Shown piece by piece: positions 5,908 through 10,852 of a stretch of DNA of 64,000 nucleotides. Under the pieces are notes generated by a model that worked only from the letters and a program-made list of their open reading frames with translations, searched no databases and was not told the DNA's origin. The translations under genes were made by a program, and so were the position numbers. Source of the DNA: Dokdonia sp. Dokd-P16 (lineage in GTDB: Bacteria; Bacteroidota; Bacteroidia; Flavobacteriales; Flavobacteriaceae); the NCBI RefSeq assembly GCF_003095655.1, contig NZ_CP029151.1, forward strand, positions 391,501 to 455,500, given 5' to 3'. Within the stretch, counting starts at the first letter, position 1; each line of letters begins with the position of its first letter.

Positions 5908-7548
5908 ATGCAGAAATCTACTATTACAACCCTACTTGTATTTCTAGTGCTCACGCTTTGTAGTATCTGGATAACACCACTTTCTGCACAGACACCTATA
6001 GATAGCACTCAGCATTACTATAGAGTTATTGCCTACCCACAAAACACTGAGGATGTGACAGCGGGTATTAATTACTTCAAGCGCCAACTTGAAAATCCTA
6101 AAAACGATAAAGCCCGCTATAATTATTTCTCTGAGCTTATATCCTTAGGGCATTTAAATAATGGTGACATTTTTGAGAGTGAAAAAACCACCATCAACCT
6201 CTTAAAAGATATTCCTGTGACAGATACACAAACCATCGTTCGTCTCAGAAATAGGCTGGGTAGGTTGCATAGAAGTCTTAATAACCTGCCGCTAGCCCTA
6301 GAAAATTACCAGCAAGCACTGGCTATGACAACAAAAAAGGAAGATAGTATTACCATTTCAAATAATATCGCCACCATTTATATGGAGCGCTCATCTTATG
6401 AGAAAGCGGCTCAAGTCTTAAGTCCCTTTATTAAGGATACAGACCGCATAGAAGAAAATAACACACTGACCACTATATATGACAACTATGGCTATAGTAT
6501 TACTCAAATAGGTGATTTTAAGGGTGAGGCATTGATGCTAGAAGCGCTAGCTATTAATGAAAAAGGCCGAAATATAACGGGAAGTTTTTCAACAAATAGA
6601 CATCTAGCATACTACTACCATCAGCAAGGCAAAGAAGCACTAGCCAAAAAACATGCCCTTCAAGCAAAAGATATTGCTTACAGTATTAATAATCCTAGAT
6701 ATAAACTTGAAGCTCTCGGACTAGCGATAGATATAGGCGCAACAGCAAATGCCTATGTTTTTAAAAAACTATCAGACAGCTTATACAAAGTGCAAACTCT
6801 TCAAGAAAATAAATATGCAGCTCAAAAGTATGAATACGCCACGTTCCAAACCCAAGCAAAGGAAAGCGAGCTCATAGCACAGCAGGAGAAGGTTAATAAA
6901 ACACGCTACCAGTTCTTAGCTTTATTTATTATGGTAATCACGGTAGGTATTATTATCTTTCTTTCTTTACGCCATAAAAGAAAGCGCCTTGAACAAGTAT
7001 ATATCACAGAAACAAAAATCTCAAAGAGATTACATGACGAAGTTGCAAATGATGTTTACAAACTAATCTCACAAGTGCAAACTAATACATACAATGAAAG
7101 TCACTTACTAGATAATCTAGAGCATATTTATAGTAGAACTCGAGATATATCTAGAGAAAATAGTTTTATTGAGACAGAAGAATCTTTCCACACGACCTTA
7201 CGTGATTTGTTATTGAGTTATAAAACTCCTTCTCTCAACATTATCACAAAAGGTATCGACAAGGTAGATTGGAATCAAATTTCAAAAGTACACAAGACTA
7301 CTATTTATAGGGTTTTACAAGAGTTAATTACAAATACTAATAAACATAGTAAAGCATCTATAGCCTTTGTTGAGATTTCAAAGGAAGGTAAGAATTTGCA
7401 TATTCTGTATAAGGATAATGGTATAGGCGGTGCTATAAATTCTAAAAATGGTTTGCTTAATGCGGAATCCCGTATAGAAGCTTTAAAAGGAACAATTACT
7501 TTTGAAAGTAAGTCTAAACAAGGTTTTAAAGCACAGATCAACATATAA
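5908..7548 (+). CDS. TPR-containing sensor histidine kinase
   Basis: A 546-residue two-component sensor. The order is: signal peptide (residues 1-28), periplasmic tetratricopeptide-like helical repeats (about 60-300), one membrane helix (about 332-354), a short DHp helix with phosphoacceptor His376 in RLHDEVAND, and a HATPase domain with DNGIGG at 503-508. This layout is common in Bacteroidota NarL-type systems. The ligand is unknown; the TPR sensor suggests protein or peptide sensing at the envelope. Its stop overlaps the regulator start (TAATG), so the pair is translationally coupled. The start at 5908 is the only one that keeps the signal peptide. Confidence 0.9.
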   Translation: MQKSTITTLLVFLVLTLCSIWITPLSAQTPIDSTQHYYRVIAYPQNTEDVTAGINYFKRQLENPKNDKARYNYFSELISLGHLNNGDIFESEKTTINLLKDIPVTDTQTIVRLRNRLGRLHRSLNNLPLALENYQQALAMTTKKEDSITISNNIATIYMERSSYEKAAQVLSPFIKDTDRIEENNTLTTIYDNYGYSITQIGDFKGEALMLEALAINEKGRNITGSFSTNRHLAYYYHQQGKEALAKKHALQAKDIAYSINNPRYKLEALGLAIDIGATANAYVFKKLSDSLYKVQTLQENKYAAQKYEYATFQTQAKESELIAQQEKVNKTRYQFLALFIMVITVGIIIFLSLRHKRKRLEQVYITETKISKRLHDEVANDVYKLISQVQTNTYNESHLLDNLEHIYSRTRDISRENSFIETEESFHTTLRDLLLSYKTPSLNIITKGIDKVDWNQISKVHKTTIYRVLQELITNTNKHSKASIAFVEISKEGKNLHILYKDNGIGGAINSKNGLLNAESRIEALKGTITFESKSKQGFKAQINI

Positions 7549-8213
7549 TGTTTCAAAAAGTAATTATAGCAGACGATTTAGGAAGTATCAATGAAGGTGT
7601 ACAACACATTCTCACTACCTATCAAGTACCCTACATAAAACAAGTTCAATATTGTGATGAGGCATATAAACTCATTAAAAAAGCAGAAATGGATGGTAAA
7701 CCCTATGACCTCATAATTTCTGATCTTTCATTTGTAGCAGACCACCGCAAACAACAATTTCCATCTGGAGATGATCTTGCAGCTGCTTTAAAGAAAGAAC
7801 ATCCTGAGCTCAAGATTATCATTTATACTGTAGAAGATCGCTTCCAGCGTGTGAGACAGTTATATACTGATACAGGTGTAGATGCCTTTGTATGCAAAGG
7901 ACGAGAAGGAATCTCAGATCTTAAAGAGGCAATCACAACCGTTTTTAATGGAGAGCGTTATGTCTCTCCACGTGTTGCTATGGCAATGTCTGACAAAGCA
8001 GATTTACAAATAGACGAGTACGATATCACCCTCATGCGATTACTCTCTTACGGTTATTCTCATGATGAAATAAGTAAAGAACTCGTCGCTCTTAACGAGT
8101 CTCCATCGAGTCTGAGTGCTATTGAGAAAAAAATGAGCAAACTTAAAATTCAGTTTAGGGCAAATAATGCGGTTCATCTTGTTGCATTAGTAAAGGATTT
8201 AGGTATTATTTAG
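7548..8213 (+). CDS. Response regulator, NarL/LuxR-like
   Basis: A 221-residue regulator. The receiver domain (1-125) has acidic pocket Asp9-Asp10, phosphoacceptor Asp59 in ISDLSF, Thr94 and Lys117. A C-terminal helix-turn-helix region (about 150-221) is a diverged LuxR/NarL-type DNA-binding domain with the recognition part around SLSAIEKKMSKLK. It is cognate to the overlapping kinase gene. Directly downstream lie four putative sRNA genes, each behind an identical promoter module, and these are the obvious candidate targets. That link is inference from position and motif sharing. Confidence 0.88.
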   Translation: MFQKVIIADDLGSINEGVQHILTTYQVPYIKQVQYCDEAYKLIKKAEMDGKPYDLIISDLSFVADHRKQQFPSGDDLAAALKKEHPELKIIIYTVEDRFQRVRQLYTDTGVDAFVCKGREGISDLKEAITTVFNGERYVSPRVAMAMSDKADLQIDEYDITLMRLLSYGYSHDEISKELVALNESPSSLSAIEKKMSKLKIQFRANNAVHLVALVKDLGII

Positions 8214-8242
8214 ATAAATTTTAAAAAAAAATGCCCTGATGC

Positions 8243-8283
8243 GGTTTCCCGTAACGTTATTATTATAAAACCTTGTAATCTTA
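8243..8283 (+). promoter_or_regulatory. sRNA promoter module 1 (GG-N4-CCGTA-N22-TAATCTTA)
   Basis: Box GGTTTCCCGTA (8243-8253) is followed after exactly 22 bp by TAATCTTA (8276-8283), the weakest -7 match of the set. No -33 TTG is evident, which suggests activator dependence. Confidence 0.65.
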
Positions 8284-8286
8284 TCA

Positions 8287-8361
8287 CGGCTTAAAGCATG
8301 GGGGCTTTAAGTCATGGATTGTTTGTAGAGGATGTTCACTTGAACATCCTCTATTTTTTTT
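8287..8361 (+). ncRNA. Putative small RNA 1 of a four-member array
   Basis: A transcript of about 75 nt is predicted. Hairpin 1 is GGCTTAAAG (8288-8296) pairing with CTTTAAGTC around the loop CATGGGGG. After a GATTGTTTGTA linker comes a 10-bp terminator stem GAGGATGTTC/GAACATCCTC (8328-8337 with 8342-8351) and a T-rich tail. This copy differs most from the others in loop sequence, but keeps the stem and the run of G residues. No coding capacity, and I do not recognise a known RNA family. Confidence 0.7.
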
Positions 8362-8431
8362 ATAAGAAACTGATAATCAAGCACTATTAAAAATCAAAAT
8401 GTTAAAAAATAAAATAATAAGCTCAAATAAA

Positions 8432-8472
8432 GGAAATCCGTAAAACACCTATCTAAAAATCGCGTATTCTTG
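8432..8472 (+). promoter_or_regulatory. sRNA promoter module 2
   Basis: Box GGAAATCCGTA (8432-8442), exactly 22 bp, then TATTCTTG (8465-8472). The N4 part is AAAT instead of TTTC, while the flanking GG and CCGTA are kept. Confidence 0.7.
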
Positions 8473-8475
8473 TCA

Positions 8476-8544
8476 TGGCTTAGTTGCTAGGGGTTTCTAG
8501 GCCAAATTTGTTTGTACAGGGTATCCGCTTGGGTACCCTTTTTT
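8476..8544 (+). ncRNA. Putative small RNA 2
   Basis: Hairpin 1 is TGGCTTAG/CTAGGCCA (8476-8483 with 8497-8504) around the loop TTGCTAGGGGTTT. Relative to copies 3 and 4, a G-U pair has become G-C and an A-U pair has become G-U, so pairing is kept despite base changes. The linker is TTTGTTTGTAC. The terminator is AGGGTATCC/GGGTACCCT (8518-8526 with 8531-8539) plus a T tract. Confidence 0.75.
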
Positions 8545-8576
8545 ATTTAAAATACTAGTGTCCTTTATGGATTCGC

Positions 8577-8586
8577 TTTCGCGAAA
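8577..8586. repeat. Iterated palindrome, copy 4
   Basis: Lies between sRNA genes 2 and 3. Confidence 0.85.
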
Positions 8587-8616
8587 GTTAAAAATGAAAA
8601 AAAACGTCCAAATAAA

Positions 8617-8657
8617 GGAAATCCGTAAAAGACTTATTCAAAAATCATGTATTCTTG
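8617..8657 (+). promoter_or_regulatory. sRNA promoter module 3
   Basis: Box GGAAATCCGTA (8617-8627), 22 bp, TATTCTTG (8650-8657). It is nearly identical to module 2, including the upstream AAATAAA. Confidence 0.7.
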
Positions 8658-8660
8658 TCT

Positions 8661-8732
8661 TGGCTTAGTTGCTAGGGGTTTCTAAGTCAAGATTATTTGC
8701 ATTGGGCACCCACTTGGGTGCCTTTTTTTTTT
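8661..8732 (+). ncRNA. Putative small RNA 3
   Basis: Hairpin 1 is a 9-bp stem TTGGCTTAG/CTAAGTCAA around the same loop TTGCTAGGGGTTT. The linker is GATTATTTGCA. The terminator GGCACCC/GGGTGCC (8705-8711 with 8716-8722) is followed by ten T residues. The terminator sequence is unrelated to those of the other copies, but its position and shape are the same. Confidence 0.75.
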
Positions 8733-8761
8733 GGATTTTCTTTGAAACTTGAAAAGCCTGC

Positions 8762-8771
8762 TTTCGCGAAA
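8762..8771. repeat. Iterated palindrome, copy 5
   Basis: Lies between sRNA genes 3 and 4. Confidence 0.85.
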
Positions 8772-8852
8772 ATAAAAATATCAAGACGATGGAGTTAATG
8801 GATAATTATGAGTGTAAAACTGTACATCTAAAAAAATAAAAAGAGCAAATGC

Positions 8853-8893
8853 GGTTTCCCGTATCTCATATTTATATAAAGCTTGTATACTTG
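8853..8893 (+). promoter_or_regulatory. sRNA promoter module 4
   Basis: Box GGTTTCCCGTA (8853-8863), identical to module 1, then 22 bp and TATACTTG (8886-8893). Confidence 0.7.
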
Positions 8894-8896
8894 TCA

Positions 8897-8969
8897 CGGC
8901 TTAGTTGCTAGGGGTTTCTAAGTCGGGATTGTTTGTAAAGGGTTTCCATCTGGAGACCCTTTTTTTTTT
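8897..8969 (+). ncRNA. Putative small RNA 4
   Basis: Hairpin 1 is CGGCTTAG/CTAAGTCG around the loop TTGCTAGGGGTTT. Its closing C-G pair replaces the T-A of copy 3, a compensatory change. The linker is GGATTGTTTGTA. The terminator AGGGTTTCC/GGAGACCCT (8939-8947 with 8952-8960) is followed by nine T residues. Confidence 0.75.
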
Positions 8970-9048
8970 ATTATACGGAAATCATCTCATCATTTAAGAG
9001 TGGTTACTACACCTATTAAATTAATTTACAACAAATCTACCAGAATGA

Positions 9049-9089
9049 GGTTGCCCGTAAAGAAGTCTGCTTTGATAAAATTATGTTTG
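9049..9089 (+). promoter_or_regulatory. Fifth promoter module, upstream of the lipoprotein gene
   Basis: Box GGTTGCCCGTA (9049-9059), exactly 22 bp, then TATGTTTG (9082-9089), a perfect TAnnTTTG. The sequence between differs completely from the sRNA modules, so conservation of box and spacing is not just recent duplication. Transcription would start near 9096, giving a 66-nt leader before the ATG at 9162. No sRNA hairpin follows. Confidence 0.65.
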
Positions 9090-9161
9090 CTGCTCACTGT
9101 CGGAACAAGCCGAAAAAAGACACTAAACAGGAATAGGTAATACCTAAGATCAAGATTATTT

Positions 9162-9524
9162 ATGAAAAAAATGTACCTTTTACTAGCACTAGTTGCTCTG
9201 TTAATGACAAGTTGTGCTTCACACTTTGGCTTACCAAAAAATTACAACCAAAACACTACAGAAGTTGTTCTTACGAAGAAGAACTTCAAAGTTGTAAAAA
9301 TGGTAAAAGGAGAAGCAGAAGCTACTTATATTTTTGGAATAGGCGGACTAGCAAAAAACGGTCTCGTAGCCGAAGCAAAGGCAAAAATGCTTTCAGGAGC
9401 AGGAATGGATGGAGCTGCAAGAAGCGTAGTAAATGAGGTGGTAGAAGTAAAAACTTCTGGTTTCTTATTTGTGAGCAAATACAAAGTGATTGTATCTGCT
9501 CAAATTATTGAGTTTGTAGAGTAG
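9162..9524 (+). CDS. Small lipoprotein (DUF6567-like)
   Basis: A 120-residue protein with a lipoprotein signal peptide ending LMTSC (lipidated Cys18). The mature part contains EATYIFGIGG (about 52-61) and a C-terminal beta-rich segment. It resembles a small Bacteroidota lipoprotein family of unknown function (DUF6567 from memory). It sits behind the fifth copy of the promoter module shared with the sRNA genes, so it is likely the protein-coding member of that regulon. The envelope location fits an envelope-sensing kinase upstream. Confidence 0.75.
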   Translation: MKKMYLLLALVALLMTSCASHFGLPKNYNQNTTEVVLTKKNFKVVKMVKGEAEATYIFGIGGLAKNGLVAEAKAKMLSGAGMDGAARSVVNEVVEVKTSGFLFVSKYKVIVSAQIIEFVE

Positions 9525-9610
9525 TTTATATCTCTATTAATAGATTTGGATTGTGATGTAAATTACAATCCAAATCATTTTTAACTTATACTCCATTTCA
9601 AATTAATACT

Positions 9611-9889
9611 ATGGAAAGCAAAAATCAAACGTATGGCCTTTCGGCAGAAAATCCAGTAATGGTAACTGACGTAGCTATGTCTTATTCATACCTTGATAAA
9701 TTAATGACTGTCCATAAAGACTTAAGTTATCGTCGTATTAAAAGTACGTTTTCGTCCTCTGTAAATGGTGTTCTAGATAAATATGAAATATTATTAAACG
9801 ACGAGCATTACTCCTTTCTATTTATCTACCCTTATGCCGAAGAAGATAAATTCACTATAGCTGAAACTTTTGAGACATTAAGAAACTAA
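9611..9889 (+). CDS. Hypothetical protein, 92 residues
   Basis: A soluble small protein with mixed alpha/beta composition and no signal peptide or recognised motif. It lies 86 bp after the lipoprotein gene on the same strand and may be read through from it, or have its own promoter. No family recognised. Confidence 0.55.
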   Translation: MESKNQTYGLSAENPVMVTDVAMSYSYLDKLMTVHKDLSYRRIKSTFSSSVNGVLDKYEILLNDEHYSFLFIYPYAEEDKFTIAETFETLRN

Positions 9890-9990
9890 AAGTAACATTA
9901 ATTTCATACCTCATTCTACAACAGAGGCATCTACCTTAGTTTAATTATCATGGTTTTCATTCATCATAATTAGTCTAAAACCCATCCCAT

Positions 9991-10000
9991 TTTCGCGAAA
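9991..10000. repeat. Iterated palindrome, copy 6
   Basis: Intergenic. Confidence 0.85.
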
Positions 10001-10368
10001 GCGAACCTCAACACCTTCTTTTTCCTTTCTCTTCTGTATCCATCATAAATGAGCAAGCTCAAAACTTTAGAGCTACAGCCATTCATTTTGTGTGTTTTGT
10101 CGATGATTTGTGTATTTCATAGGTTAAGTAGGCGTATTCATTTCAAAAATAATGGAGATGATCATGTATAGCTAATTTAGCAGTGCAGAATGACTTACTT
10201 ACCTAGCATAGCGAGTATTACTCGAAGATCTAGTACAGAAAAAGAAGTATGATTATCCCTGCAGAGAAGATGTTTTTATAGATTGTTTATTAGATTGAAT
10301 TCCCCCAAATTTTCAATTTGGTTTTGAGTAATGATTTGTTACCATACTTAATTTAACCTCATTGTTTT

Positions 10369-10397
10369 GCAAAGGCTATCCACAAGGATAGCCTTTT
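10369..10397. terminator. Strong hairpin, possible terminator
   Basis: AAAGGCTATCC/GGATAGCCTTT with a 4-nt loop. It could end a plus-strand small RNA or the minus-strand membrane-protein gene ending at 10448. T tracts are short on both strands. Confidence 0.5.
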
Positions 10398-10447
10398 GCG
10401 ATTTATAGGAAATCCTAAAGCAAGTAAATAAGTTGTAATCATTGCAA

Positions 10448-10852
10448 TTACTTGATGGTAGATTTATTCAAGCGTATAAATACCCATCCAAAGAAGAGCA
10501 TAAAGAGAAAGTCATTAAGACCATAGATGCTATAAAACACTCCCGCAAGTGTGTCTTGCTCGTATACTGTAGTAATTGAATGGCTTGTAAACCACTGCAG
10601 GTATACAATCACGTATGCCAATTTCTCAATCGTAAATACCGCGATAAGCCATGGTACAGACGCATAGCTTTTTGAAACAGCGATATAGGCAAATCCCCAT
10701 AATACAATACCTATAAGCCCAAAATAGCCCATTACTTCTGGCTGTGTATCCATCATTACCTGATTTGTAAATCCTTTAGATAATAGTAACACACCAAGTA
10801 CATTAGATAGGCCAGCTACTACAAATAGCTTAGAAATAGTTTTTGCACTCAT
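10448..10852 (-). CDS. Four-helix integral membrane protein
   Basis: A 134-residue protein with about four membrane segments (residues 8-27, 43-60, 66-87, 104-126). No catalytic motif or family recognised. It lies downstream of, and on the same strand as, the MoxR-type operon with a 53-bp gap, so it may be its last gene or independent. Confidence 0.6.
   Translation of the reverse strand: MSAKTISKLFVVAGLSNVLGVLLLSKGFTNQVMMDTQPEVMGYFGLIGIVLWGFAYIAVSKSYASVPWLIAVFTIEKLAYVIVYLQWFTSHSITTVYEQDTLAGVFYSIYGLNDFLFMLFFGWVFIRLNKSTIK

Follow-up and report, generated by a model that had tools for sequence, protein, structure and literature searches.

A probable RNA-output two-component system in Dokdonia and a predicted operator common to regulator loci of many genera

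The csRNAs of Streptococcus, controlled by CiaRH, are several similar small RNAs whose regulator box is set at a constant spacing from the -10 element; a 5' hairpin, an unpaired middle part, and a terminator are found in many of them, and their lengths range from 51 to 202 nt (PMC3091779). The CiaR box is a direct repeat (TTTAAG-N5-TTTAAG), and the unpaired part of the csRNAs complements the Shine-Dalgarno sequence and the start codon (PMC3091779). The LhrC1-5 RNAs of Listeria, under the control of LisRK, are also multicopy, with four of the five clustered; they are 111-114 nt long, pair with the ribosome-binding site through CU-rich motifs, and act additively (PMC12101431). Qrr1-5 of Vibrio are described in the same source as multicopy small RNAs downstream of a phosphorelay regulator, with four stem-loops, dependence on Hfq, and sigma-54-type transcription with LuxO (PMC12101431). 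Among Bacteroidota, FopS of Bacteroides is a multicopy paralogous family of 14 members with a single-stranded 5' seed, one terminator hairpin, canonical promoters, and the RRM-1 protein RbpB as partner (PMC11697453), and FimS-FimR of Porphyromonas consists of a TPR-containing sensor kinase and an activating response regulator that controls fimbriae via a protein cascade (PMC5706477).

A locus that combines several of these traits is found in Dokdonia sp. Dokd-P16, within a window of 64,000 nt (the whole stretch of DNA analysed, to which positions refer), where four putative sRNA units lie beside a two-component system. As in the csRNAs, the units are several and similar, with a 5' hairpin, a middle linker, and a terminator; a regulator box stands at a fixed distance from the -7 element in 25 of 25 units of the family, and terminators were found in the four window units. 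CiaR is an OmpR-type regulator, and its direct repeat differs from the Dokdonia box, which is an inverted repeat, GG-N4-CC. The units share with LhrC the multicopy, clustered arrangement and the apparent two-component control, but they are ~72 nt long, carry G-rich loops in place of CU-rich motifs, and their additive action is a proposal. An earlier, sequence-only reading of this DNA had compared the units with Qrr arrays. The comparison applies to the logic alone, since the Dokdonia promoters have a sigma-A-type -7 element, each unit has two hairpins, no AAA+ domain was found in the regulator with Pfam, and Hfq was found in none of 18 Dokdonia genomes (E up to 0.001; several are incomplete, and 5 of 14 controls were found). 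Overall, the Dokdonia logic appears to resemble that of the csRNAs and LhrC more than that of Qrr. FopS is comparable as a paralogous multicopy family in the same phylum, and FimS-FimR, by description, as a similar pair of kinase and regulator. Flavobacterial mRNAs are reported to be without Shine-Dalgarno sequences (PMC9723704).

All features of the locus are on the forward strand. The sensor histidine kinase gene (5908-7548) encodes TPR and HATPase_c domains (Pfam TPR_12 and HATPase_c, the HATPase_c match being 0.3 bits short of the cut-off), and a relative was found in all 79 regulator loci compared. The adjoining gene (7548-8213) encodes a response regulator of 221 aa, a putative activator. 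Pfam reports the receiver domain alone (Response_reg) and no DNA-binding domain; a profile of 13 homologues matched the RcsB, VraR, and NarL chains of the PDB into the C-terminal part, which is described here as NarL/RcsB-like. Downstream of the units, the gene at 9162-9524 encodes a DUF6567 lipoprotein (Pfam, E 2e-40), a proposed co-member of the regulon. A tmRNA gene is also present in the window at 2358-2756 (138 bits in the Rfam search).

The four units were delimited by folding, a covariance model, and a terminator scan: unit 1 at 8288-8359 (terminator 8325-8354), unit 2 at 8477-8548 (terminator 8518-8539), unit 3 at 8662-8732 (terminator 8704-8723), and unit 4 at 8898-8969 (terminator 8937-8962). 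Each is ~72 nt long and has a first hairpin, the loop of which is rich in G (AUGGGG in unit 1 and UAGGGG in units 2, 3, and 4), then a GAUUGUUUGUA-type linker and an intrinsic terminator. RNA folding gave two hairpins in four of four units, with z-scores of -6.7, -2.5, -3.7, and -3.5 for units 1-4; equally good structures were obtained from 0, 4, 1, and 1 of 200 shuffles, respectively. Seven terminator-like sites were found in 8200-10450 against a shuffle mean of 1.1, two of the seven being the box palindromes themselves. The four units and the five 41-bp promoter modules reported in the sequence-only reading are confirmed by pattern search, folding, and terminator scan.

That reading had also claimed that the stems keep pairing through compensatory changes. 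In the wider family both stems covary: in an alignment of 24 of the 25 units, with 22 distinct rows, two-sided changes occur at 13 of 15 pairs and 99.4% of cells pair, against a mean of 6.1 two-sided pairs in shuffles and 1-3 with slid partners. The alignment was fitted to the structure and so favours these figures. Within the window, however, the changes in the first stem are mostly one-sided (G-U to G-C, U-A to U-G), and the lone two-sided change, at the seventh pair in unit 1, replaces G-C by A-U. The claimed exchange of T-A for C-G exists in the terminator stems (unit 3 versus unit 4), but in the first stem it is seen only among relatives. Similarly, all units share the two-hairpin shape, but the terminators are not 'entirely different' in sequence, since the terminator parts of paralogues inside one genome are ~60% identical. 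Whole units are 94% identical between orthologues and 71% between paralogues, which indicates that the four units were already distinct before the three species compared diverged and have been retained since.

The units look non-coding, because on direct reading no ATG is present in units 2-4 and the reading frame begun by the loop ATG of unit 1 continues into the terminator. Rfam release 15 (4227 models) gave the tmRNA as the sole match at or above the gathering threshold in the whole window, and all eight matches in 8200-10450 at E up to 1 were far under threshold; in agreement with the earlier failure to recognise the RNA, no Rfam family explains the units. At 12 related loci, the one above-threshold match was a tRNA. 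Judged from the comparisons above, the four units and their relatives are a new RNA family with a structure backed by covariation. No description of the family or of its operator was found in the open-licence literature, which was searched partly by way of the comparator systems.

Each promoter module consists of GG-N4-CCGTA, exactly 22 bp, and TAnnYTT(G/A), 41 bp in total, and 4 nt separate its end from the unit start in all four window units. By pattern search, the modules of units 1-4 are at 8243-8283 (box 8243-8253, -7 element 8276-8283), 8432-8472, 8617-8657, and 8853-8893, and that of the lipoprotein gene, also present in the Dokdonia genome G006, is at 9049-9089, with a predicted start at 9094. 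A sixth module, absent from the earlier reading, is at 7464-7504 within the 3' end of the kinase gene; it points toward the regulator gene and, on the codon constraint described below, is proposed as the promoter of that gene, with a predicted start at 7509. The whole module thus matches six times in the window, against a mean of 0.01 over 100 dinucleotide shuffles. The box reads directly as an inverted repeat, GG-N4-CC. Since the sigma-A element TAnnTTTG of Flavobacterium psychrophilum is numbered -12 to -5 (PMC9723704), the same numbering places the starts of the four RNAs on the first hairpin base (8288, 8477, 8662, 8898) and, by spacing, the centre of the inverted repeat at -41.5. Together with 9094, these starts are 1-2 nt from those put forward in the sequence-only reading (8287, 8476, 8661, 8897, 9096). 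Position -41.5 is the classical position of a class II activator, and the usual -33 element was not seen on direct reading of the 22-bp stretch. In a comparison of three genomes, invariant positions make up 94% of the box, 97% of the -7 element, and 91% of the RNA; the 22-bp spacers reach 70%, and the DNA that separates the units 50%. The spacers between units contain GCTTTCGCGAAA palindromic repeats (window ~8570-8590 and 8760-8775), which are also found in intergenic regions of relatives.

Two covariance models were used for the distribution of the family, R1 built from units 2-4 and R2 from 24 units. R1 recovers unit 1 at 53 bits and exceeds 45 bits in seven of 59 genomes including the window's own, all from one genus, whose named contigs among the matches listed are Dokdonia; weak R1 matches at E up to 0.1 in 45 of the 59 genomes were not counted as units. 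A weak match at window 10320-10403 was likewise not counted, being part of a different conserved region. This region (~10130-10403, ~270 bp) is non-coding-looking, strongly conserved in five of five aligned array-bearing genomes, and has a CCCCC tract as well as an end that resembles a terminator; it is possibly another structured RNA. The search of flavobacterial genomes that the sequence-only reading had proposed gave, with R2 at E up to 0.001, 25 units in eight of 18 Dokdonia genomes and none in the other ten. Among 299 Flavobacteriaceae genomes, R2 matched in at least four, two Dokdonia and two others; weak copies could be missed here because 16 candidates per genome were scored. The two weak matches outside the genus (G109, G132; loci L158, L159) were set aside, as GGN4CCG was not near the match.

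The promoter module accompanies all 25 units with exactly 22 bp between its elements; the box is GGN4CCGTA in 24 and ends in CCGCA in one, and from the -7 element to the unit there are 4 nt in 24 cases and 5 nt in the remaining case. Of the 18 Dokdonia genomes, the eight with units are also the eight in which the regulator is present at 59% identity or above; the ten unit-less genomes have best matches of 28-48% (nine genomes) or none at E up to 1e-10 (one genome). The chance value of this co-occurrence is 2.3e-5, which is not a strict probability because the genomes counted are related. The window genome (G000) carries its four units and no more; G006 and G012 also have arrays of four, and G008 and G002 have arrays of three. 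A single unit lies right behind a 69-71%-identical regulator in G003, G016, and the second locus of G002, and behind a 59%-identical regulator in G011. G002, G003, and G016 each have, in addition, one orphan unit away from the regulator. G002 (L042, L043, L063) is a 76%-complete MAG with a G008-like array and G003-like loci, and may mix two strains.

The box is present well beyond the genus. At least 54 named regulator loci, from Maribacter to Sphingobacterium, were taken as a sample of the regulator family; with L104 and L105 left out (contigs of G012 and G002), 52 named loci outside Dokdonia remain. Among the matches listed, these 52 loci contain 59 copies of TACGG-N4-CCGTA and no copy of nine control patterns (six palindromes with scrambled letters and three versions with the gap changed to 3, 5, or 6); 24 of the 59 lie within 700 nt downstream of the regulator, 21 of them with a -7 element at 22 bp. 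In the 54 loci, again among the matches listed, the box was counted 110 times against twice for the reversed sequence, and many of the 110 fall in the kinase coding region, which was analysed separately. A looser pattern gave 33 modules within 700 nt downstream in 30 of the 52 loci (among the matches listed), with a spacing of 22 in 32 and of 21 in one. For 24 of these 33 downstream modules in other genera, among the matches listed, an ORF of at least 30 codons starts within 60 nt of the predicted start; the box is therefore not a signature specific to sRNAs, since it is often upstream of protein genes. A terminator precedes any such ORF, 50-75 nt past the start, in L139 and L140 (a Chryseobacterium MAG and Epilithonimonas) and in L137 (a Flavobacteriaceae genome). 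In Joostella (L156), a TTACGGTTTTCCGTAA box with an imperfect -7 element is followed, just downstream of the regulator, by a homologue of the lipoprotein (53% identity), which suggests that the DUF6567 lipoprotein is an old member of the regulon.

A module-like site at the end of the kinase gene, corresponding to the sixth module of the window, was found in 42 of the 52 named loci among the matches listed, and in these 42 the predicted start is 33-98 nt from the regulator ATG. It could be a coincidence of coding, as the residues there are conserved. The codons, however, are constrained beyond the residues: in the named loci among the matches listed, CGT is the Arg codon in 45 of 50, ACT the Thr codon in 27 of 31, and ATT the Ile codon in 33 of 34, compared with 19% of Arg, 26% of Thr, and 48% of Ile codons upstream in the same kinase genes. 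The three columns rank 2, 3, and 4 among 60 scored codon columns, rank 1 being a Ser column outside the site. The repeat is also kept with differing inner letters (GGAAAACC, GGTTTCCC, GGAATCCC). The pattern is absent in 10 of the 52 loci (among the matches listed), five of which (L132, L133, L145, L146, L147) have the near form GCGTA. Because of the codon constraint, the site is interpreted as a promoter, probably autoregulatory, that lies inside the kinase gene, and it appears to offer the strongest indication that the box is read by this regulator family.

The operator is, as far as these patterns indicate, common to regulator loci of many genera. A wider scheme, plausible rather than probable, would be that many Bacteroidota genera have pairs of TPR kinase and NarL-like regulator with a common operator, TACGG-N4-CCGTA, spaced 22 bp from the -7 element, of which one copy inside the kinase coding sequence is the regulator's own promoter. 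The slot downstream of the regulator would then repeatedly have become occupied by non-coding RNAs unrelated in sequence (the G-loop arrays of Dokdonia and the candidates in Chryseobacterium, Epilithonimonas, and the Flavobacteriaceae genome), and paralogous systems in Dokdonia may make opposing G-rich and C-rich RNAs.

For the window itself, it seems quite probable that the locus is an RNA-output two-component system in which the NarL/RcsB-like regulator drives its own gene, the DUF6567 lipoprotein gene, and the four short RNAs. The TPR-containing histidine kinase would phosphorylate the response regulator, which would bind the inverted repeat (TA)CGG-N4-CCG(TA), with its centre at -41.5, and, judging from the spacing, act as a class II activator at promoters with a -7 but without the usual -33 element. 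It would switch on its own gene from the promoter inside the kinase gene, the lipoprotein gene, and the four short RNAs, each with a predicted transcript that ends at a terminator of its own. The proposal of the sequence-only reading that an activator-dependent regulon is controlled by the adjacent regulator is thus supported by the co-occurrence, by the box at loci of the regulator family, and by the codon-constrained copy in the kinase gene. The four RNAs would be additive, trans-acting antisense RNAs without Hfq; since they have in common an apical loop rich in G and a UUGUUUGUA-like linker, additive action on common targets is probable. They also end in strong terminators, and their presence in several copies suggests a role in dosage or speed. 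Neither CsrA nor RRM-1 gave a match in the window genome, and with Hfq not found in the genus, pairing without these proteins is the likely mode.

The boxes of the window fall into two subtypes. In units 1 and 4 and the lipoprotein gene the box is TG(C/A)GGTT(T/G)CCCGTA, and in units 2 and 3 the flank AAATAAAGGAAATCCGTAAAA resembles the site beside a paralogous regulator; a second regulator may therefore drive units 2 and 3, in place of the adjacent one or in addition to it. In the former case the adjacent regulator would be left with units 1 and 4 and the lipoprotein gene, the 41%-identical paralogue, encoded elsewhere in the genome, would take units 2 and 3, and two signals would be integrated. 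An A-rich flank together with GGAAATCCGTAAAA is common to units 2 and 3, the orphan units (G002, G003, G016), and an RNA-like region beside the paralogue, and units 1 and 4 differ (TGCGGTTTCCCGTA). Such a division of labour nevertheless appears unlikely, as the core box and its spacing are identical in all units and the paralogue's own adjacent box is degenerate in G000 (GGAAATACGTA). A module with a AAATAAAGGAAATCCGTAA flank is also found in three genomes before a 60-codon ORF (L007, G000:C1:1551266-1551306; copies L080, L093); it is divergent from a serS-like gene and has the A-rich, GGAAATCCGTAAAA-type flank of units 2 and 3.

More doubtful still is that the RNAs titrate a protein or another RNA rather than pair with mRNAs, for example with G-rich loops that sponge C-rich RNAs near paralogous regulators. 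A run of four to six G is present in 25 of 25 units and at least partly unpaired in the six tested, and largely unpaired CCCCC tracts occur in the RNA-like regions beside the paralogous regulator and at ~10130-10403. The energies of duplexes between units and C-rich RNAs, however, were unremarkable against dinucleotide shuffles in 12 of 12 comparisons (RNAduplex, which ignores intramolecular folding), with 29 of 200 shuffles as good in the lowest one, and the 9 bp over which the orphan unit matches its neighbour in G002 and G003 are interrupted in G016 (by eye). Titration of CsrA was rejected, as CsrA was not found in the window genome. The RNA-like region beside the 40-41%-identical paralogue (L064-L069, L075; G000:C1:1705471-1706130) has a box-like site, C-tracts, and a terminator, and adjoins a 2-oxoglutarate dehydrogenase E2-like gene (by eye). 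A third group of regulators (28-30% identity; L062, L072, L073, L074) has a TTACGG-N4-CCGTAA site downstream, in a variant form in L062, followed by a long stretch with a TTCCCCC motif and then a hairpin.

That the units are a passive repeat, a mobile element, or decaying promoter-terminator debris without RNA function is very improbable: the tandem units are similar, and related units exist at a second, regulator-distant locus in three genomes, but the whole window genome has just four copies, on which count a REP-type element was rejected, orthologous units are closer than paralogous ones, the stems covary, and the DNA between units has diverged.

Antisense control would be favoured by mRNAs in which CCCCTA or UACAAACAAU is accessible close to the start codon. 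Searches with the complements of loop and linker gave no supported target. With two mismatches, the loop complement AAACCCCTAGCAA matched 105 times in G000 and the reversed pattern, which is an uneven control, 49 times; among the 29 contexts inspected, 11 were the array's own units and two of the other 18 lay within 120 nt upstream of an ORF, and no consistent start-codon sites were found in that genome. Outside the array, the linker complement TACAAACAATC occurs in three orthologous groups across G000, G006, G008, and G012 and in one G003/G016 pair. The first group, with the complement at codons 3-6 of an M3-type peptidase (named by eye), was set aside as a target since G002 has the same linker but lacks this match; G002 may be mixed, so this exclusion is not final. 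The second group is antisense to an ssb-like gene (by eye), and the third lies far inside a gene.

Multicopy small RNAs driven by two-component systems are known from Vibrio, Listeria, and streptococci, and FopS, as far as its description goes, is a multicopy family of Bacteroidota without a known regulator. In Dokdonia, a genus with cultured marine members, the likely regulator, the operator, and the RNAs are all at one locus. New in comparison with the known systems appear to be the RNA family, the operator common to many genera, and the intragenic, probably autoregulatory site. The operator is a simple pattern by which the regulon of this family of kinases and regulators may be found in other genera. 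With regulator, operator, and RNAs at one place and Hfq not found, these bacteria would allow a direct test of antisense control that uses neither Hfq nor Shine-Dalgarno sites.
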